DNA from: Pseudomonadota bacterium
GTDB lineage: Bacteria; Desulfobacterota; Desulfobulbia; Desulfobulbales; CALZHT01
Direction: 5' to 3'
Length of the DNA: 64,000 nt
Assembly (NCBI GenBank): GCA_018823135.1
Contig: JAHJJF010000136.1
Span: 1-64,000 of the forward strand
Position 1 is the stretch's first letter. The number at the start of each line of letters is the position of its first letter. This document shows positions 1 to 11,014 of the stretch, piece by piece. The translations under genes and the position numbers were made by a program. Below the pieces are notes generated by a model. That model ran no database searches and had not been told where the DNA came from. It saw only the letters and a program-made list of their open reading frames with translations.

Positions 1-174
1 CTTTTCGGCATCGGCCAACCCTGCCAATTTGCCGATGGCCGATGCCGCCAGCCGCCGGACATTGGCTGCGGGCGAGCGGGTCAACTCAATAAGCTCCGAC
101 AACGCACCGGAGTCGCCGGAGTTGCCCAGTGCAACAGCCCGGTCCCGGAATTGTTTTTCTAGTTTTTTGTGCAT
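1..174 (-). CDS. HEAT-repeat protein, N-terminal part (runs off window)
   Basis: The minus-strand frame opens with ATG at 174 and stays open to base 1, giving 58 residues. Its ATG shares one base with the cas7 stop codon (TAATG), so it is translationally coupled to the cas operon. The visible residues include GALSELIELTRSPAANVRRLAASAIGKLAGL cut here as GALSELIEL, NVRRLAASAIGKL: paired amphipathic helices with the conserved R-xxAA-xxIGKL pattern of HEAT/PBS-lyase repeats. HEAT repeats normally mediate protein or nucleic-acid contacts. Canonical I-C operons continue with cas4, cas1 and cas2 at this point; here a HEAT protein comes first, so it is a candidate accessory subunit. The full length and any other domains lie outside the window. 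Confidence 0.7.
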   Translation of the reverse strand, partial: MHKKLEKQFRDRAVALGNSGDSGALSELIELTRSPAANVRRLAASAIGKLAGLADAEK

Positions 175-1037
175 TAGAGCATTTCAATCAACTGGACTCC
201 GGCAGGCGCAGAACCGATTGTAACAGTATAGTCGCCAAAAGAACGTGGCGGCATATCACCGCAATTCTTTTCCACAGTTATCAAATCAAACAGTTTCTGC
301 GCCGGGGTGTTGCCGAGTTCTCCGTCATGCTTGAAGACGATCAGTTTTTGGGCATTCATCTCGCCACGGGCCGCAGACCGATCATGATCAAACATGTACT
401 GCAATGATTCCCAGAATAATTTCAAATCTTCTTCGGAAAATACGGTCTGTTTGGCAAGAGGTGCTGAAATAAAACCGTGGGCGCGATAGAGGCCATAGGG
501 GACTGTGAACTTTCGACCCATTGTCCTTTCTTTTTCCAGGTCTTGCTCTTTGGTAACCGCCATGCGGGTTATGCTGTGCTCAGCGGTAAAAATCCGATCA
601 ATGCTTCGAGCGAAAGCAAACTGTATAGGCCCTCTTACCTGACCGGCATTTACTTCGGTTGACATGACCGCCCCAAAAGTCCGCACATCAAAAAAATTCT
701 TACACATCCAGCCGGTGATCTTACGGGCGTCCTCTTCGTTCTTGGGTAATTTTTTACTTTCCGGTTTCAACTCGAATGCTTGGTATGCCCTTTCATGCTG
801 TCTATTAAGCACAGCCTTTTCCTTAACGTAAATCTCGAAAGGCGGTTGTTCTCCCTTAACCAGGCCGATATAATTTCTAACCTTACGTTTCAAGCAGACA
901 TCAGTAACCAGGCCGTTGCCGGTTTCCGGATCGATACGGGGCAGGTTGCCGGCATCAGGGTCGCCGTTGGGATTGCCGTCTTTTACGTCAAACAACAGCA
1001 CGAATTCATAGCGGTTCTTGATTGCGTCACTCATCAT
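174..1037 (-). CDS. cas7c: Type I-C CRISPR backbone protein Cas7c (Csd2)
   Basis: 287 residues; the second ATG (1034) is an alternative start. Cas7c forms the helical backbone of the I-C Cascade complex along the crRNA spacer. The N-terminus reads [20 protein letters not shown], the family signature of Csd2 proteins (RRM-like beta strand followed by GNPNGDPD), and the middle carries [21 protein letters not shown], again typical. The length matches the usual 280-290 residues. The start overlaps the cas8c stop by one base (TAATG) behind an AGGAG-type ribosome binding site, so the two genes are coupled. The order cas3-cas5-cas8-cas7 is the standard subtype I-C order. The family assignment is very secure; activity is inferred. 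Confidence 0.95.
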
Positions 1038-1417
1038 TATTCTCCTTTTGTCTCGTCTTCTTTTTTATTGAAGAAATCCTGTCGTTGATGATAATAGCCA
1101 ATGGCAAACCGGCCCTGGTCTTCGAGGGCCAACGCTACTGGAACACCACTGGCGGGAACCTTGCCCATGATTTCCTGCATGAGTTTGTCCAGCCACACCG
1201 TGCTCTTGCCGGCATTGCGAATTTTGGCCAGATGATGGATGGCCAGATCCTGCAGACGCTTGAAAGTCACCAACGGATTGCTGGTAGCCGCGCTGAAATA
1301 GGTGTCGCGGATTGTTTTGTTCAGGCCCGCCTGCGCCTGTTCCTGGATGCGCTCCAGCACGGCAAACAACCGACCGAGCACATATCCTTTGTTCTCGTTT
1401 GTCTTATCCAATGACAT
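1037..1417 (-). CDS. cas11c: Predicted internal small subunit Cas11c within cas8c
   Basis: An in-frame ATG at 1417 inside cas8c is preceded by a near-perfect ribosome binding site (GGGAGG, six bases before ATG) in a place where no signal is needed for cas8c itself. Starting there gives a 126-residue, helix-rich protein beginning [19 protein letters not shown] and sharing the cas8c stop. In studied type I-C systems the small subunit Cas11 is made by internal initiation in the 3' third of cas8c and is needed for Cascade assembly. The position, size and strong Shine-Dalgarno sequence here fit that arrangement. The start is inferred, not shown by expression data. Confidence 0.8.
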
Positions 1418-2782
1418 TTGAACCTCCCTTGTTTTTATTCCTCTAAGCCTTGAATCGCGAGTCAGAAAACCTTTGATGAGAGCAGCGCGGGCGTGGGTCA
1501 CTTTCTGTTCGGCCTTGCAGCGGCGCACCGCGCCAGCGAGCAGGGTACGCGGATATCCTATCCCGGTTAAAATTGACCGCGCCACCTCGCCACCGAGATT
1601 TGGCGAAATATTATCGGCTTTTCCTTCCGTTGCCGTTGTTACCAACAGTTGAAACAGTGAAAGAAATTCCCGGTCATGCGGAGCGCGCACAATTTCGATG
1701 TCTTCAAAATGGCGGGCGATCTTTTCTTTAATGTCGCGGATGTTGCCCTCGTACCAGAAACGAATGACGATCCGGGAGGCATTGGGGCCAAGGCCAAGGA
1801 CATAAAAAGGCATTGCATCTTCAGCAGGAAGTACCCCAGTCCGCACTGCGGCAAGAAGGGAACGGATTTTACCGTAATCCGGCTCTTCGCCTTTAGGTGG
1901 CTCTCCGAGGAAACAGGAAAAATCCTCCTCAAAAGGATGATTTTCCTTGGCCCAGAAAACCGTGCTGGCATCGCCTACCTGCATGCGTTGTCGCGATCCT
2001 TTGGCCAGAAGGGTATTCAGAGCAGTGGTGTAGGCAAATTCATTATGTTTTCCAATAGGAGCGTTTAATCCTTGATCTTTTTTTGTGCACCCAAAGGAGC
2101 AATAGGCACTATCATTAAAACTGACGATATTTGCTCCTGAAGTTTGCGCTCCCCATACACCTTTAATTGACGTATGCAATATGGAGATTTCATCAATATC
2201 TCCACTCAGCGCACAAGCTTGTAATTTACCATTAACTTCTTCGAAACAGTCGGCGATTCTTGCAACAACTTTTGAGTGCTGTGCAATAAGTTCGTTTTCA
2301 CCTTCTAAGATAAAAGTAAGATTTGCATTTTCCTCTTTTAAATCATGAAAAAGTGGATGCTCAAAAATGGGCTGCTTTGAAAATGACTCATAGAAGCTAT
2401 TAATGACTTCTATTCCTTCATCTTCAACATCATTGAATGTCTCTTGAATCTTCCCCCTAAATGCAGTTAAAGATTTGTGGGATTTTTCTGCATCTTTCGA
2501 GCTATTCGATTTAGGCACTCCCAATACATACTGAGGATTATCCCACAACAAATTTGTTTTAATGCCAGATGTTTTTTTAGCACCAAGTGGAACGCGAAAT
2601 ACACGGGCACTTTTCTTCTTACCTTCTCCTGTTCTGGTATCCCTAATATTTACGAAACGTCCATTTTTACTCAATACTATCAGGAAAGGAATTGCTTTAT
2701 CTTCAAACCCATAGGGCGGTACATCGTAATCTGGGTCATCCAGCATCCTCTCGTAGTAATCAGCCAAAGCCTTCAGGATCAT
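1037..2782 (-). CDS. cas8c: Type I-C CRISPR large subunit Cas8c (Csd1)
   Basis: 581 residues, normal for Csd1. Cas8c is the large subunit of the I-C Cascade and recognises the PAM and unwinds the target. The start [29 protein letters not shown] is cut here as [14 protein letters not shown] and [16 protein letters not shown], the typical Csd1 opening; [26 protein letters not shown] is shortened to QGLNAPI and FAYTTALN, the conserved central motif. The ATG overlaps the cas5 stop by four bases (ATGA). The 3' third encodes the predicted Cas11c. Residues about 27-247 (bases roughly 2040-2700) are encoded by visibly AT-rich DNA between GC-rich flanks, which suggests a recombined N-terminal half. 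Confidence 0.95.
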
Positions 2783-3441
2783 GACCGCACCTCCACGTTT
2801 CGGAGATCAACGCATCCGTTCTCCATCCGGGCATGAAAAAACTGCGGCATCGCTTCCTTGCCGGAATAATCCATGTCAAAAAGCATCCATCCCAAGTCGC
2901 GGCTTTCATCAAGAGGTGTCGGTAGCTCAGCGTCCCTGGGCAGAAACTCGAAATCAACGGGAAACTCCCGGCAACCGAAATAGGGCCGGTGAAAACATTG
3001 ACCAGTTGAAGCGCGGCGAATGAACATCTGCTCGAATTTGGTGACGTTGTCCTCTGCTCCGGCCTGATCGGTCATCTCGAATTCTGCATGGATGACATAG
3101 GCGATATCCCGCAGAAAAAGCCCGGCTCTCTGCTGCCGCTCCTTCTCGATATACATTCCGAGAGTCCCCGTGCCCTGGCTCATTGCCTCAGTCACGTTCC
3201 GGGCCGGGATGACCGCGCCCACCTCGTTGCGTCGCACCGACTCCCACCTGACCGGCTTGAGCACATCGATTTGCAGGATTCTCCAGGCCATAGCAGGCTT
3301 CCAGAGAATAGCCTCAAGAATGCCTCGAGCGGCCGACGGCGTCATCACGTCGTAGCTGACCCGCTCTACTTTCATCTCCGGCCTGGTGAAACAGGCGTTT
3401 TCCCCGCTCACCTTCAACCGGAATGGGTTGCTTTTCTTCAT
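2779..3441 (-). CDS. cas5c: Type I-C crRNA endonuclease Cas5c (Cas5d)
   Basis: 220 residues from the ATG at 3441, chosen because it has a strong AGGAGG site and gives the family N-terminus (MKKSNPFRLKVSGENACFTR, close to the xxVxGxxACFTRPE signature of Cas5d). A longer frame to 3606 overlaps cas3 and is rejected. In subtype I-C, which lacks Cas6, Cas5 processes pre-crRNA and caps the 5' handle. RVSYDVMTPSAARGILEAI is the conserved motif that follows. The gene starts 19 bases after cas3 stops and overlaps cas8c by four bases, so it is one transcription unit with them. Confidence 0.95.
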   Translation of the reverse strand: MKKSNPFRLKVSGENACFTRPEMKVERVSYDVMTPSAARGILEAILWKPAMAWRILQIDVLKPVRWESVRRNEVGAVIPARNVTEAMSQGTGTLGMYIEKERQQRAGLFLRDIAYVIHAEFEMTDQAGAEDNVTKFEQMFIRRASTGQCFHRPYFGCREFPVDFEFLPRDAELPTPLDESRDLGWMLFDMDYSGKEAMPQFFHARMENGCVDLRNVEVRS

Positions 3442-3460
3442 ACGCAGTCCTCCTTTTCGT

Positions 3461-5692
3461 TCATGCAAAAAATTTCTCTGGATCAACTCCTGTGGACTCG
3501 TCCGGCGGAACAAAGCCATAACAGTCGTCATAAAGCGTGTAATCAAGCATATAAACACCGGGATAGCCGGTTTCTCTGATATAGTCCTTTGCTGCCAGCG
3601 CCTCAAAAAAATACCTGGATATACCGATGGAAAAACGCCCCAGTCTGCCTAAAATTTCATGCTGCCGCCACGTTTCGGAGGTGAGTCGTCCAAGGAGATT
3701 GACTGCTTCACCGTAAGGCACGACCACTGTCGCCTGCCAGTCATCTTCAATGAACCGGAATTGCTGAGCAGCGGTGCGGAAATAATAATTCATGCTACGC
3801 CCTGTTGATATTTTCAGGATGTTTTTGGCATCCAGAGCATCCTGGCCAAGCTGCCAAAAATGCTGGCGGAAATATTTTTCGTAATTGGCGGGCGTCAGCA
3901 GACCGTCCAGATTTTTGGCTTCAAGTAACTCCCTGGCAATCCCGGCTGATTGCCGCACATAAGCTGGTTGTTCTGCGGGGACAAAAACTACTGTTTTCCC
4001 AAGATCGGTCAATTTTCCCTCACGGTTGCATCGGCCCGCCGCCTGTGCTATGGAATCAAGGCCAGACAAAGCGCGATACACAACCGGGAAATCAATATCC
4101 ACCCCTGCCTCGACCAGGGAAGTGCTGATCACGAAAACAGGCCCCTTTTTATCAGCCAGCCACTTCTTGACTTCTGCAAGGACTCGAGTGCGGTGCTCGG
4201 CGCACATATTGGTTGAAAGGTGAATGGTTTGTTCCACCGGAAGCAGTCGAGCAAGTTTGCGAGCATCATCCTTCCGATTGACGATGCAGAGAACCGCCTT
4301 TCTTTCTTCCATGATTGACACTGCAAGTTCAGGCAAATCGACAGGAGTCAGACGACCTCCATGCAACACCGTCTCCACGCGCTTTAACTTTGTGGCCAAT
4401 CCATCAGGATTCTCAACAATCTCCGTCACATTTTCAAATCCTTCCCTGAATTTAAAGTCAAATGCCTCGGTTCTGGTCAGAACAGGCTGGGTGGCAGTAC
4501 ACAAAACAGGAGTGACTCGGTAATGACGGAACAATTCCCGAATGGCAAAGACCACTGGCCGGAGATACTTTGGCGGCAGGCACTGAGCTTCGTCGAAAAT
4601 GACAACACTGTTGACGATGTTATGCAATTTACGGCACCGGCTTGTTCTGCAGGCATAGAGCGACTCGAAAAACTGCACCGAAGTTGTAACGATCACCGGA
4701 GCATCCCAGTTTTCGGCGGCCAACCGGTTGCGAACTGTTTCCTTGTCTTCCTCTGTTGTCACCACATTGCTGTGATGCTCGATTACCGCATTTTGAAAAC
4801 CGGGAATTTTACGGAAAACATCAGCAGTCTGTTCGATAATGCTTGTATAGGGAATCACATAGATAATACGATTTTTTTTGTGCTTTACTGCGTGACGCAA
4901 GGCAAACGCAAGTGAAGACAAAGTCTTGCCCCCGCCGGTGGGTACAGTCAATGAAAATACATCGGGTGGCTTTTCTGCTTTTTTTCTGCATTGCTCCAAG
5001 ACTTGCGCCCGAATTTCATTTACCGTTGTCGATTGCGCCTTGCGGCACATGGTATCGATATAGTCATCAAAAGTGGGCAACAATGTCTGCAGTGAAGGGT
5101 ATTGGCGATTTCGGGTGCCAGCCCTACTTTTGTCCATGAAATTTTCCGTATCCAGGAAGTCAGCATCGACCACACAGGAAAATAGCATACGGAGAAAGAA
5201 GGCAGGATCAGCGCCGGAAGGTATCGGTTGCCGGGGCATCTCTTGGTTGGCTATCGAGAAAGGAACATTTTTTAAGATATATTCGGATTGATCAGGTGTA
5301 CGCATTTTCGGCTCAAGCGCTTTTGGTCCGATTTTTTCCGATTCGAAGTCGGTCAATCCAGCATGATGTCCCATGATAATCCACGATAGTACGCGATCAG
5401 CCCCCTTCCATTCATTTAATGATGCCAGGTGACCGCCAGCCTGGGAATGTACTACCCTGCCAGGCTTGGTCTCCAAATGACACTCAAGCCCATTTTCGGT
5501 ATAAAGCATTGACTGAAATTCGTTGGAATATTTCCCAAGATCATGCCAGAGTCCTGCAAGACCTGCCCATTCATCCCCGCCGAATGGTTTGGCAAACCTC
5601 GCCGCCATTTCAGCCACATTCCTCAAATGCTCTTCCAACAACTGCCATTTTTCCGGCGGCTGACCTTCCAAACTATGGGCGTAATATTTCAT
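3461..5692 (-). CDS. cas3: CRISPR-associated HD nuclease-helicase Cas3
   Basis: 743 residues from the ATG at 5692 (MKYYAHSLEG), the usual Cas3 opening; an upstream TTG at 5722 overlapping the preceding stop is possible but adds ten unconserved residues. The N-terminal HD nuclease shows H-D at residues 50-51 (WHDLGKYS) and a later GHHAG. The superfamily 2 helicase part shows Walker A (TVPTGGGKT), DEAH-like FDEAQ, motif V (STSLVEAGVDID) and motif VI (QAAGRCNREG). Cas3 is recruited to Cascade-bound DNA and degrades it. All key motifs are intact, so interference should be functional. It lies 26 bases downstream of the chimeric ORF6N gene, hence probably co-transcribed. Confidence 0.95.
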   Translation of the reverse strand: MKYYAHSLEGQPPEKWQLLEEHLRNVAEMAARFAKPFGGDEWAGLAGLWHDLGKYSNEFQSMLYTENGLECHLETKPGRVVHSQAGGHLASLNEWKGADRVLSWIIMGHHAGLTDFESEKIGPKALEPKMRTPDQSEYILKNVPFSIANQEMPRQPIPSGADPAFFLRMLFSCVVDADFLDTENFMDKSRAGTRNRQYPSLQTLLPTFDDYIDTMCRKAQSTTVNEIRAQVLEQCRKKAEKPPDVFSLTVPTGGGKTLSSLAFALRHAVKHKKNRIIYVIPYTSIIEQTADVFRKIPGFQNAVIEHHSNVVTTEEDKETVRNRLAAENWDAPVIVTTSVQFFESLYACRTSRCRKLHNIVNSVVIFDEAQCLPPKYLRPVVFAIRELFRHYRVTPVLCTATQPVLTRTEAFDFKFREGFENVTEIVENPDGLATKLKRVETVLHGGRLTPVDLPELAVSIMEERKAVLCIVNRKDDARKLARLLPVEQTIHLSTNMCAEHRTRVLAEVKKWLADKKGPVFVISTSLVEAGVDIDFPVVYRALSGLDSIAQAAGRCNREGKLTDLGKTVVFVPAEQPAYVRQSAGIARELLEAKNLDGLLTPANYEKYFRQHFWQLGQDALDAKNILKISTGRSMNYYFRTAAQQFRFIEDDWQATVVVPYGEAVNLLGRLTSETWRQHEILGRLGRFSIGISRYFFEALAAKDYIRETGYPGVYMLDYTLYDDCYGFVPPDESTGVDPEKFFA

Positions 5693-5718
5693 AGTAAAAC
5701 CGTTTGAGATGTTATTAT

Positions 5719-6177
5719 TCAAAAGCCGATTTTCCGTTTCGGTTTTTTATCTTCACTGAAAAGCTGACGAATGGCCTCAAAAACCACCCGGAAGTTCTCG
5801 TCGTACTTGTTCTCCATTTCCTCGATTTTATTTTTCAGATCCTTATGCCGTCCAAGAAGCTTCCTTAATTTGACAAACGCCTTGATAATCTCGATGTTGA
5901 CTCGAATGGCTCTTTCACTGTTCAGAACGCTGGAGAGCATCGCCACGCCATGCTTGGTAAATGCAAAGGGCATTGTCCTGGCAAATCTCAACGGCTTGAG
6001 GTCATCACAAATTGTGATAACCTCGTCACGTTCTTCACGATTGAGTTGAAACATGAATTCCGGGGGAAACCTTTTGATATTGCGTTTTACCGCCTGGTTG
6101 AGATGCTCCAGGTAATACATATTGGCCCGCTTGGAGTGCAGGATAGTTTTTAAGTCTGATGGTGACAGGTCATTCAT
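5719..6177 (-). CDS. Chimeric protein: type I-F Cas1 N-terminus joined to ORF6N domain
   Basis: 152 residues from the ATG at 6177 (AGGTG site; GTG at 6186 and ATG at 6180 are in frame). The first 25 residues, containing LSPSDLKTILHSKRAN and YYLEH, are recognisably the N-terminus of subtype I-F Cas1. At residue about 26 the sequence switches in frame to the middle of an ORF6N domain (LNQAVKRNIKRFPPEFMFQL), continues through GVAMLSSVLNSERAI, a coiled coil, and ends in KPKRKIGF like its neighbour. The usual ORF6N opening (RG-xxVLLDRDLAELY) is missing. ORF6N is a DNA-binding domain of phage antirepressor-like proteins. Whether the chimera is functional or a deletion scar is unknown. Confidence 0.85.
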   Translation of the reverse strand: MNDLSPSDLKTILHSKRANMYYLEHLNQAVKRNIKRFPPEFMFQLNREERDEVITICDDLKPLRFARTMPFAFTKHGVAMLSSVLNSERAIRVNIEIIKAFVKLRKLLGRHKDLKNKIEEMENKYDENFRVVFEAIRQLFSEDKKPKRKIGF

Positions 6178-6186
6178 CATTTTCAC

Positions 6187-6696
6187 CTAAAACCCGATCT
6201 TTCCCTTGGGTCGTTCTTCCGTTGTCAGCAACTGCTTGATTGCTTCAAAGACAATTCGAAAATTATCGTCATGGTCGGTGAGGCGTTTTTCCAACGCGTT
6301 GAGTTTCTCTGCAAGCTTCTTGTTTGAGGATAAAAGTTCACGCATTTGCACAAAAGCCCGCATGATGGTGATATTAACCTGGATTGCTCGCTTGCTGTTG
6401 ATTACGCTGGAAAGCATGGCAACTCCTTGTTCGGTAAAGACCATCGGCAGATGCCGTAAACCCATTTTTACCGCATTGGAGGTGCCAAATTGGCTTCTCC
6501 AATCTTCCAGCTCCTGCTTTGACATTTCAAACATGAAGTCCGACGGAAAACGATCTATGTTTCTTCTGACAGCTCTTTTCAATTGACCTGTTTCCACTTC
6601 GTATAATTCCGCCAGGTCTCGGTCTAGCAACACTTTATGACCTCGGATAAAATGTACCTTATTAATGATCGCTTCCACAGGGATCAGACTGTTCAT
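6187..6696 (-). CDS. ORF6N-domain DNA-binding protein
   Basis: 169 residues from ATG 6696, which has an AAGAGGA ribosome binding site; the frame continues upstream to 6813 but those residues are not family-like. The complete ORF6N domain is present: IINKVHFIRGHKVLLDRDLA, LYEVETGQLKRAVRRNIDRF, then FTEQGVAMLSSVINSKRAIQ, a C-terminal coiled coil (about residues 115-145) and the tail RPKGKIGF. Such proteins resemble phage antirepressors (KilA-N/ORF6N group) and are often encoded singly in bacterial genomes. It ends nine bases before the chimeric paralogue starts, and both lie directly upstream of cas3 in the same direction. Role unknown; a regulatory or phage-derived part is possible. Confidence 0.85.
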   Translation of the reverse strand: MNSLIPVEAIINKVHFIRGHKVLLDRDLAELYEVETGQLKRAVRRNIDRFPSDFMFEMSKQELEDWRSQFGTSNAVKMGLRHLPMVFTEQGVAMLSSVINSKRAIQVNITIMRAFVQMRELLSSNKKLAEKLNALEKRLTDHDDNFRIVFEAIKQLLTTEERPKGKIGF

Positions 6697-7603: not shown

Positions 7604-9193
7604 ATGTCAGTGTTTAAAAGTAAAACTCTATTACTCCTTGTATCAATATGGCTGCTTAGTTGCGGTTTTGCAAACGGTGGAGAATATTATGTTTCAAAGG
7701 CGGGAAATGATCAAACCGGGGACGGCAGGATTACCAATCCATGGCATAGCATCGCCATGGGGGTAAGCAGACTCGCAGCCGGGGATACCCTTAATATCCG
7801 GCAAGGAACATATCAAGAGGCGGACGTGAGGATTCGCACGAGCGGCAGCGAGGGAAACCCCATTATTATTAAAAACTTTGAGAATGAAAAAGTAGTTTTG
7901 AGTGGCACGAAACAAATCGACAACGGTTGGGAACAATACAACAACAATGGACAAATCGTCTGGAGATTGAATGTCTGGCAGGATGACATCTCAAAATGGC
8001 AAAAGGACGCAGGGAGTAATTTGGGAGTAAACAGTCGCGGCACAAAATTCTGGCCAAGAATTGTTATACAAAATGCCAAGGGTTACGTACAGGGACAATT
8101 TTTGAAAAGTGATCCGGAAAGTGACCTCCCTGTCCCTCCCCACCAGGAAGAGTTCCTTTCGGATGTGGATGTCCCTGGAGAATGGTATTTTGAGAAAACG
8201 GATGGCTTCCTGTATGTCTTTCCAAGAGATATTTACGGAGCAGGATATAACGCCAATAATTACACCTTTGAAATCGGCGTGCTGGGGAGAGCTTTCCAGG
8301 AGTTAAACAGTGATACTTTCTCTTACATCATTATTGAAGGGCTTCATTTTTATGGTTATACCGCGATATCACTCGTGGAGAATGATCAGGTACAATCAGC
8401 CGGTGCTATCAGTTTCTCTAAATGGGAAAAAACCGAGGATTCAATTCGTTCTCATATTGAAGTCAGAAACTGTATGTTCGAAAAATGTTACAGACCAATC
8501 GTTCTGGTGCAAATAGATGATATCAAAGTGACTGATTGTCAATTTATCGAGTGCTTTGATCAGGGGATTGCCTTGTATGCCGTGGAAAGTCAGGATTTAT
8601 CCGATGCAAGAAATCACAATGCAACTATTTCAGGGTGTTCATTTACCAGGATGTATGATCATTACCCCACGATTGCAGGAGGCGGAAATGCGCGCTCGGC
8701 TGCAATAAAAATCATGGGCACAGTAAATGCTGTGGTGGAAAACTGCGAAATAGACTTTGCTGAAAACATGAATGGAATCTGGTTCGATGTAGCTTCAACG
8801 GATGGTGTCATATCTGACAATATTGTCTCACAGGCAGGGAAAGCCGGCATTTTCATTGAAAACAGATCTGACAATGCCCAGGTCACCGGCAACATAGTCA
8901 GAGACTGCAGAATGGGTATTAAAGTTGGAACTGTTAATGAAATACAGGGGGAAACTAATGCTCCAAAAAATACAGTAATATACTCAAATTATATCGTTAA
9001 TTGCCTCGATAGTATCTACCTTCTGGCAGCAATCAAACCAAGTGTAATTTATAACAGTATGGTCGATTCAACAAGAATGAACATCTATCTTTCAGACTCT
9101 GTTTATCTCTGGAATAATGCGGATGATATTCTTCTGGACTCGAATATTATCGGTTTGTTAACACCAGCTATGACAAAGATGGAATCTCGATAG
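7604..9193 (+). CDS. Exported right-handed beta-helix repeat protein
   Basis: 529 residues from ATG 7604, chosen for its AGGAGG site and because a signal sequence follows at once (residues 3-20, LLLLVSIWLLSCGFANG; the Cys could be a lipobox). Mature protein opens with a DUF1565-like motif (YYVSKAGNDQTGDG, then NPWHSI, AAGDTLNIRQGTY) as in parallel beta-helix polysaccharide lyases and surface proteins. Downstream are repeated short strands with N/D ladders (ISGCSFTRM, VENCEIDFAENMNGIW, ISDNIVSQAGKAGIFIENRS, VTGNIVRDC) of the pectate-lyase-type coil. It may act on or bind polysaccharide outside the cell; no catalytic residues can be assigned. The last coil appears frameshifted (see findings). 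A sigma54 promoter precedes it. Confidence 0.8.
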   Translation: MSVFKSKTLLLLVSIWLLSCGFANGGEYYVSKAGNDQTGDGRITNPWHSIAMGVSRLAAGDTLNIRQGTYQEADVRIRTSGSEGNPIIIKNFENEKVVLSGTKQIDNGWEQYNNNGQIVWRLNVWQDDISKWQKDAGSNLGVNSRGTKFWPRIVIQNAKGYVQGQFLKSDPESDLPVPPHQEEFLSDVDVPGEWYFEKTDGFLYVFPRDIYGAGYNANNYTFEIGVLGRAFQELNSDTFSYIIIEGLHFYGYTAISLVENDQVQSAGAISFSKWEKTEDSIRSHIEVRNCMFEKCYRPIVLVQIDDIKVTDCQFIECFDQGIALYAVESQDLSDARNHNATISGCSFTRMYDHYPTIAGGGNARSAAIKIMGTVNAVVENCEIDFAENMNGIWFDVASTDGVISDNIVSQAGKAGIFIENRSDNAQVTGNIVRDCRMGIKVGTVNEIQGETNAPKNTVIYSNYIVNCLDSIYLLAAIKPSVIYNSMVDSTRMNIYLSDSVYLWNNADDILLDSNIIGLLTPAMTKMESR

Positions 9194-9249
9194 TGATGGC
9201 TCGAATTGGAAATCTAAAGACAATGCTAAATAAATTTGCAAATGCCGGT

Positions 9250-9340
9250 TCAGGACAGCTTCTTGAGCAGCCAGGCCAAATTGATCCCGTGATCGTGATC
9301 TTTGCGAGGCCGCCCAACAAATAGCCATTTGTCCCGCATG
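9250..9340 (-). pseudogene. Remnant 3' end of an FMN-reductase-like gene
   Basis: Minus-strand translation ends in INLAWLLKKLS followed by TGA, matching VNMAWLLKKLS at the end of the intact FMN reductase at 12844-13416; the DNA around the stop (CTTGAGCAGCCAGGCCA) is also nearly identical. Upstream only a few residues (GVRLMRD) still resemble the parent family, so this is a decayed fragment. It could be a leftover of a duplicate or of a recombination event. Confidence 0.6.
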
Positions 9341-9366
9341 AGCCTGACCCCTTTGATGGAAGGATA

Positions 9367-9406
9367 AAATAAGAACGGGCAGGCAAATGCCCACCCGTTC
9401 TTATTT
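9367..9406 (-). terminator. Hairpin terminator
   Basis: Arms AAATAAGAACGGG and CCCGTTCTTATTT are exact inverted repeats of 13 bases, with a few extra GGC/GCC pairs and an AAAT loop. The stem ends in A/T on both sides, so it can act in either direction. It lies 21 bases after the stop of the minus-strand gene that ends at 9428. Confidence 0.75.
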
Positions 9407-9427
9407 CGTGAATCAGGGACATGAACC

Positions 9428-11014
9428 CTAGGGCCCATTTTTGCTGACGTTGGATTCAAGCATGGGATCGGATCCCTGGTGCAGGTTGCCATACAGCGGT
9501 CCCCAGCCGCCGTCACTCAACTTATCCTGGGCCAGAGCGACTGTAATGAGCCGTACGCCATCGGAAGCTGCCGCCACCTGGGCGGTTTGATGTCTGGTGG
9601 TGCGCCAGCGTAATGTGGTTTTTGAAGTGTCGGTCCACTCTTCCACGGATTCTTCCCGCCAGTTTTCATCAATAATGGTACACCGCAGGGGATTGCCACC
9701 CTCCTTATTATTGCTCTTGACCAGAGATGTGGCTTTTTCCTTGAGCGATTGGATATCCTTGCCGGTGTACTTATCCGGTGTCATATAGGTGCGCTCCATG
9801 CGGATCTGGCGATTTCCCTTGTCTTTAGCCACCAGGGCGTCAAACTTTGTCTGGACCTGCTGGGCCTTGGGATCGGTGCCGAGTGCGGTAACCGCATTCT
9901 TTGTTTCCTCGCCAATGGACGTCATCCTCTTGTGATCCAAAAGATTTGGCCTGATGGATTTGTCCGATTTCCAGCCGTTGTCTTTTTCAAGATAGGCCAT
10001 TGCCGCGCTGATCTCACTTTCAGCTCTCTCGGATACCGAGCCCATGCGGCTTGCAAATCCCTCTTCAAAGTCCTTTAAACGCATCGGGGCCTGGTTATCT
10101 GCGATATCTTCAAGTGCCCATGTCCTGCCATTGGGAAAATCCGTCTTCTTGTATTCCTCGTAGAATTTCTTAAACGCCTCGTACCGTTTTTTCGCATCGG
10201 CGAACTTTTCAGGCTCTGATGTTCCCGGCACAAACACTAATTTGGCGGGATTATGTCCTTCACCGCTACTGTAGGCGAGGTATTCGCGAAACTTTGCCAC
10301 CCATTCCTCGGATTTTTTTTCCTTGGCAGCCTCGGCGCCCGCAGCATCGGCCTCTGCCTTGATCTCAGCGTTACCTTGTGCAGCGACCTTATTGACAAGC
10401 TCGTTATAGCGATTTTTTACGGCAACGTAGTCAGGGTGGGTCGGATCAAATTGATTTGCGTACATCCTGTCGATATACGCAAACGAACTCTCCGCCTCCT
10501 TGAGCCAGCGGTTGGCATTATTGGCGTCTTTTCCGGCGTATTCATCAGCGTTGTCGAGATTTTCATTAATGCCCTCAAGATTCTTTTTTAGCCCTGCTGG
10601 AAGCTTGGTGAGATCAATTTGTTTTGTGGTGGTGGCGGGTTTTGAGGAATTGGCAGATATCGCCTTGGGTTGCGGTTTTTTGGGCAATGCCGGGCCTGAA
10701 GGCGATGTATTTACCGTCGCATGGCCAAGCTTCTTGTCAACATTCTGCTGCATACGTTCGAGCTTTTTCTCGACCTGTGATATTTTTGGGTTATCAGGCT
10801 CTTCGGTCTTACCCTGTTCAAGGAGTCCGGCCGCTTCCTGCAACATGGTGGCTGCTTCTTCGCTTTTCCCGCTATGCATTTTTCGCTCGGCGTCACGAAT
10901 AATTTTTTCAGCCTCTTTGGCAAGATCATTTGCTCCGGCAAAGGCTGCACCTGGCGCCAACAGAGATATGGCTAAAAAAACTGTAATAATGACTCTCCAC
11001 CAGTTCGAACCCAT
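9428..11014 (-). CDS. Exported coiled-coil protein of unknown function
   Basis: 528 residues with a clear signal peptide (VIITVFLAISLLAPGAAFAG, cleavage near residue 27). Residues about 28-100 are charged and helical (KEAEKIIRDAERKMHSGKSE, then AATMLQEAAGLLEQGK), with a TPR-like look, followed by a Pro/Ala/Ser/Thr linker (about 105-135) and long Lys/Glu/Ala-rich helices (about 150-400). The last 100 residues contain RCTIIDENWREESVEEW and WRTTRHQTAQVAAA and may be a small beta domain. I do not recognise the family. It is a single gene with its own terminator downstream; the upstream 190 bases to the flavin reductase hold no recognised promoter. Confidence 0.75.
   Translation of the reverse strand: MGSNWWRVIITVFLAISLLAPGAAFAGANDLAKEAEKIIRDAERKMHSGKSEEAATMLQEAAGLLEQGKTEEPDNPKISQVEKKLERMQQNVDKKLGHATVNTSPSGPALPKKPQPKAISANSSKPATTTKQIDLTKLPAGLKKNLEGINENLDNADEYAGKDANNANRWLKEAESSFAYIDRMYANQFDPTHPDYVAVKNRYNELVNKVAAQGNAEIKAEADAAGAEAAKEKKSEEWVAKFREYLAYSSGEGHNPAKLVFVPGTSEPEKFADAKKRYEAFKKFYEEYKKTDFPNGRTWALEDIADNQAPMRLKDFEEGFASRMGSVSERAESEISAAMAYLEKDNGWKSDKSIRPNLLDHKRMTSIGEETKNAVTALGTDPKAQQVQTKFDALVAKDKGNRQIRMERTYMTPDKYTGKDIQSLKEKATSLVKSNNKEGGNPLRCTIIDENWREESVEEWTDTSKTTLRWRTTRHQTAQVAAASDGVRLITVALAQDKLSDGGWGPLYGNLHQGSDPMLESNVSKNGP

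Follow-up and report, generated by a model that had tools for sequence, protein, structure and literature searches.

A chimeric Cas1f-ORF6N reading frame upstream of a type I-C CRISPR operon, very probably the deletion scar of a lost type I-F system

Gene content of the locus and the two halves of the chimeric frame

The window (the whole 64,000-nucleotide stretch of DNA analysed here) opens on the effector genes of a type I-C CRISPR-Cas operon, all on the minus strand, namely, in 5' to 3' order, cas3 (3461..5692; matches to Cas3_HD, Cas3-like_C_2 and cas3_core), cas5 (cas5c; 2779..3444; TIGR01876, E = 5.7e-52), cas8c (csd1; 1037..2782; TIGR01863, E = 2.2e-157), cas7c (csd2; 174..1037; TIGR02589, E = 4.6e-117) and the 5' part of a HEAT-repeat gene (1..174). 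Contig C136 ends at the start of the window, and contig C110, which overlaps it there by exactly 141 bp, continues with the rest of the HEAT-repeat gene, cas4, the type I-C cas1, cas2 and a type I-C CRISPR array. The HEAT-repeat gene, located between cas7 and cas4, encodes about 280 aa (positions 2569-3402 of L121 continue window positions 1-174), and its product shows 81-83% identity in other I-C operons of the same lineage (L178 and L179).

Upstream of cas3 is a chimeric open reading frame of 152 aa (5719-6177, minus strand), the stop codon of which is followed after 26 nt by the cas3 ATG; the coordinates are those of the original prediction and the strand is corrected to minus. Directly upstream of the chimera is a second, complete ORF6N gene (6187..6696, minus strand, 169 aa; PF10543 positions 1-86, E = 3.7e-33), whose stop codon, 9 nt ahead of the ATG at 6177, directly adjoins an in-frame GTG at 6186. 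A scan for promoters and terminators around the chimeric frame gave no result above shuffled sequences.

The first 25 codons of the chimera (6103..6177, minus strand), encoding MNDLSPSDLKTILHSKRANMYYLEH, correspond to the start of the TIGR03637 model and are the start of a type I-F cas1 gene, as originally predicted, i.e. of a different subtype from the I-C genes cas3, cas5c, cas8c and cas7c that follow. The peptide is identical at 24 of 25 residues (96%) to Cas1f proteins of independent genomes, including Providencia vermicola, the Olavius Delta 1 symbiont, Salinivibrio, several Desulfobacterales and L025; every annotated plasmid match of the peptide is Cas1f, and the stub DNA agrees with the cas1f gene of L057 at 68 of 75 nt. 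Among the 55,569 stop-free 75-nt frames of the window, the stub scores 127 against the Cas1f start, compared with 20 for the runner-up (mean -23, sd 10). Although the conserved Cas1f N-terminal sequence is present, the full-length integrase with its catalytic domain is not: the match amounts to 14.3 bits over positions 1-19 of TIGR03637 (cas1_YPEST; cut-off 150 bits), Cas1f residues 26 to the end, active site included, are missing, and the chimera is not a Cas1 protein.

The remainder of the frame (5719..6102, minus strand, stop codon included) is an ORF6N gene that lacks its first 38 codons and is joined in frame to the stub. Residues 19-87 match PF10543 (E = 2.1e-15) from profile position 16 onwards, and the score of 57.2 bits exceeds the curated cut-off of 27.8 bits; the domain is nevertheless incomplete, with Cas1f sequence standing where the N-terminal motif IRGxKVMLDxDLAxLYxVET is expected. 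In the 127 residues shared with ORF6N proteins, amino acid identity reaches 89% (residues 18-152) to the nearest ortholog, a protein of 165 aa in L021, and DNA homology to ORF6N genes starts at the junction (87% to L021 and 86% to L022). Thus, the predicted fusion to a beheaded ORF6N holds, but the missing part, measured against the L021 ortholog, is 38 residues rather than about 45. Residues 10-25 do align weakly to ORF6N in some tools, as they would if the first 25 residues were the ordinary start of an ORF6N protein or resembled Cas1f by coincidence; such an explanation has practically no likelihood, given that the 25 residues, which the original prediction required to be uncommon in ordinary ORF6N proteins, occur in 0 of 25 ORF6N homologs and that both the stub score, far beyond the window background, and the 24/25 identity to Cas1f argue against coincidence.

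A search for the same fusion in related genomes, as suggested originally, found none in 258 genomes of the class, nor did one appear in 65 genome-contig loci or in phages, plasmids and viral contigs, the last three of which held ordinary ORF6N or ordinary Cas1f only.

Relatives with adjacent cas1f and ORF6N genes, and the origin of the chimera

In relatives, ORF6N genes are found next to the I-F adaptation gene. In L025 (LH_M18, a Desulfobacterales MAG), the I-F operon is intact and consists of cas1f, ORF6N, cas2-3f, csy1, csy2, csy3 and csy4 in this order, followed by an I-F array, with ORF6N (9923-10447) overlapping the end of cas1f (8986-9948). L064 has an intact cas1f, a decayed ORF6N and cas2-3f in this order. 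L021 has the ORF6N gene nearest to that of the chimera (89%) directly behind a C-terminal Cas1f fragment (residues 244-318), and the order is Cas1f fragment, ORF6N, ORF6N, codons 1-55 of cas2-3f (91%), DUF1016 and an I-B operon. In L057, a Bro-N gene, not an ORF6N gene, separates cas1f from cas2-3f. As these four loci show, genes of this kind have repeatedly settled between cas1f and cas2-3f in this group.

The 258 class genomes were searched for the nearest relatives of the window Cas3, and the comparison genomes are mostly metagenome-assembled genomes (MAGs). L178 (G128, a member of another family) has a C-terminal Cas1f remnant (ARENATEQEFRQQCLQSFADHKAMDT) and a C-terminal ORF6N remnant upstream of an I-C operon on the same strand, which resembles that of the window in cas3 (72%), cas5 (88%), cas8 (52%), cas7 (85%), HEAT (83%), Cas4 (67%) and Cas1c (74%). 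Hence, two lineages have an eroded Cas1f and an eroded ORF6N before the same I-C operon, with opposite ends of Cas1f kept. In L022, a relative of the ORF6N of the chimera (80%) precedes a further I-C lineage, with a Bro-N gene in between. As judged from L025, L064, L021 and L178, a truncated cas gene is found where relatives have an intact one. In the genome under study, the sole Cas1 is of type I-C, no second Cas1f or other I-F trace was detected (the MAG is about 95% complete, and a remnant could be missing), and no I-F repeats were found at 3 or fewer mismatches.

At the junction, cas1f relatives read CTGGAGCAT|TGC, ORF6N relatives CGCATT|CTCAACC and the chimera CTGGAGCAT|CTCAACC. A GCATT microhomology was considered and rejected, because it would add one T and break the frame; the sequences support no more than a 1-nt overlap, provided that the parent did not differ. 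Projected onto L025, the deleted segment is 994 bp.

Since cas1f and ORF6N are adjacent in relatives, the chimera is very probably the deletion scar of a lost I-F system. The ancestral block would have carried a type I-F operon in which an ORF6N gene separated cas1f from cas2-3f; the I-F genes downstream of ORF6N would then have given way to a type I-C operon, either here or in the donor of the block; and a deletion of approximately 1 kb, reaching from codon 26 of cas1f through codon 38 of ORF6N, would have joined the two genes in frame by chance. An in-frame join has a prior of one in three and needs no selection. The fossil of a vanished I-F locus, as originally proposed, is thereby retained, with the refinement that no large deletion reaching a distant ORF6N gene is needed: with ORF6N resident in I-F operons (L025, L064 and L021), a local loss of about 1 kb is sufficient. 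A single deletion and this order of events are what we infer from the comparison. Counting against a deletion scar are the fully open frame of the chimera, the low dN/dS of its ORF6N half (see below) and the lack of a close relative in which this exact chromosomal site still has the precursor before deletion. With glycogen phosphorylase as a marker of the site, matching contigs were found in relatives; one flank of the site lies off the contig.

Whether the replacement took place at this chromosomal site or in a donor is a sub-question of the deletion scar. That a different family (G128) has this I-C lineage following a comparable relic speaks for horizontal transfer of the Cas1f stub, ORF6N and I-C genes as a whole block, whereas the retention of different Cas1f parts (the N-terminus in the window and the C-terminus in G128) implies that such a block would have moved before or between the erosions; we rate transfer of the whole block at somewhat short of an even chance. 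An artefactual junction, on the other hand, is highly improbable. The assembly is a draft of 157 contigs with strain variation at exactly this locus, but the contig overlaps of 139-141 bp suggest a k of about 141, longer than the 75-nt stub, so that the reads presumably held k-mers across both borders of the stub; moreover, the combination of a Cas1f stub with ORF6N makes biological sense given L025, L021 and L178.

Cas1f starts left behind by deletions are known from other genomes, too. In Shewanella salipaludis (L070, 10001-10451), 78 cas1f codons are followed, in another frame, by the start of cas2-3f; in G580 (L153, 9383-9481), a short N-terminal Cas1f piece lies beside a CRISPR array at a divergent I-F locus.

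The product of the chimera is likely non-functional. Unlike other ORF6N proteins, it lacks the first 38 residues, which form a hairpin and the first helix in the model of the ortholog, and it carries Lys in place of a Glu that is invariant among 25 ORF6N homologs. With comparable input alignments, AlphaFold2 gave a mean pLDDT of 62.5 for the chimera compared with 81.7 for the intact ortholog; residues 1-22 of the chimera fall below 50, and the strands of the hairpin as well as the first helix are missing from the model. The loss of the conserved N-terminus, the Glu-to-Lys change and the poor model jointly make a dead product probable. The converse, that the chimera is a selected functional protein with a Cas1f start swapped in, for instance, one that regulates cas3 within the I-C operon, could draw on the open frame, on the likely operon context (stops and starts no more than about 30 nt from the neighbours), on the slight extension of amino acid alignments past the junction and on the low dN/dS of the ORF6N half (dN 0.04-0.06 and dS 0.65-0.82 against the two closest orthologs; 0.043/0.82 for L021). 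The extension past the junction reflects a loose resemblance of RANMYYLEH to LAEMYGVET. As for the low dN/dS, most of the divergence is older than the decay, which leaves no visible mark in the substitutions, and the ratio alone is equally compatible with a young scar and with a constrained gene. With the fusion unique to one assembly, the most conserved ORF6N segment and the invariant Glu both lost, and the model poor, we regard a selected functional protein as quite improbable; the deliberate product that the original prediction had entertained as an alternative is disfavoured on the same grounds. The surviving start codon and open frame might, speculatively, act as a translated leader for cas3, a role that is possible but unsupported.

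ORF6N, Bro-N and DUF1016 genes next to cas3

ORF6N, Bro-N or DUF1016 genes turn up repeatedly just 5' of cas3, and in more than one type I subtype. Of 30 Cas3_HD loci retrieved from the class, 6 (L187, L188, L189, L191, L196 and L198) have an ORF6N gene (3 loci) or a Bro-N gene (3 loci, one together with DUF1016) within 1.5 kb of cas3; these genes are located directly 5' of an I-E-like cas3, on the same strand. With approximately 0.3 ORF6N matches per genome in the class, far fewer than one would be expected near 30 cas3 loci, by a rough estimate that uses the ORF6N rate alone and ignores kinship. At 24 other ORF6N loci, Cas3_HD and type I restriction specificity genes are each found twice among the neighbours. 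An ORF6N end beside Cas3 that had been suspected in L217 (G102) was withdrawn, the next frame not being Cas3.

At L021 8570-13800, ORF6N and DUF1016 genes form an array together with repeated AT-rich linkers (CAATTCATAATTC) and three stubs that keep about 12, 55 and 12 codons of the cas2-3f start, a picture that repeated insertion of gene cassettes at this start would produce.

The pattern of ORF6N and Bro-N genes may mean either that defence loci are hot spots of insertion or that the genes are functional partners. A tentative and rather unlikely proposition is that such genes are no chance insertions but accompany cas3 again and again in Desulfobacterota, directly 5' of cas3 or cas2-3f in I-F, I-C and I-E-like operons and near an I-B operon, perhaps with a regulatory or guard function, and also mark the boundary at which effector modules are swapped; if it were true, the chimera would belong to this partner class as a gene that has lost its start. 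CrePA is a KilA-N toxin that guards CRISPR-Cas (PMC12737573), and the ORF6N and Bro-N genes are likewise genes for phage-type DNA-binding domains that adjoin cas genes. Unlike CrePA, the ORF6N genes have no CRISPR-repeat-like antitoxin element nearby: neither a CrePA/CreTA antitoxin nor a repeat-like element rose above shuffled sequences near the ORF6N and Bro-N genes of the window, L025, L178 and L057. In the literature library searched, no paper ties ORF6N to CRISPR operons.

Exchange of effector modules within conserved flanks

In a further contig of the same assembly, C138 (G000:C138, L086 1-6295), the two flanks of the window operon (window 1-169 and 5642-5795) enclose a different I-C effector operon. 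The first 139 bp of C138 are identical to the end of the chimera plus the start of cas3, and its last 141 bp are identical to part of the HEAT gene, whereas the effector genes in between differ from those of the window (cas3 32%, cas5 28% and cas7 31% identity, and cas8 24% over part of its length). The first 17 codons of the window-type cas3 survive in C138 as an orphan stub, the stop codon of which overlaps the ATG of the new cas3 (position 187); a GTG at position 148 is an alternative start. C136 and C138 thus have different operons between conserved flanks, the arrangement expected of in situ effector exchange, and C138 appears to be a strain variant with a swapped effector module and unaltered flanks. 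Replacement of CRISPR effector modules appears, from these contigs, to be continuing at the locus. The turnover of CRISPR systems that was originally predicted for this site is supported both by the Cas1f and ORF6N remnants before I-C in L178 and by the alternative I-C effector operon within the same flanks.

In situ exchange of effector modules with fixed adaptation genes is already known (Koonin and Makarova 2019, PMC6452270), and the present locus resembles it in that identical flanks enclose two different I-C effector operons, that I-F traces precede I-C and that the adaptation genes lie on the conserved side. It differs in that gene-start stubs mark the upstream breakpoints and that an ORF6N gene forms the flank, which is not one of the attractor genes listed by the review, namely, cas6, cas1, cas2, cas4 and RT (PMC6452270). 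In L058 (10037-12813), an I-F locus with an intact-looking cas1f, divergent effector genes downstream of it are followed by a 66% remnant of the end of I-F Csy4, apparently another effector swap with a relic.

Exchange of CRISPR effector modules is usually deduced from phylogenies that disagree. At this locus, its scars can be read directly: the breakpoints are marked by gene-start stubs of the lost system, intermediate states are present in relatives, and one assembly contains two alternative effector operons within the same flanks. With such scars, the sequences at the upstream exchange boundary and the role of the ORF6N and Bro-N genes become questions that can be asked.
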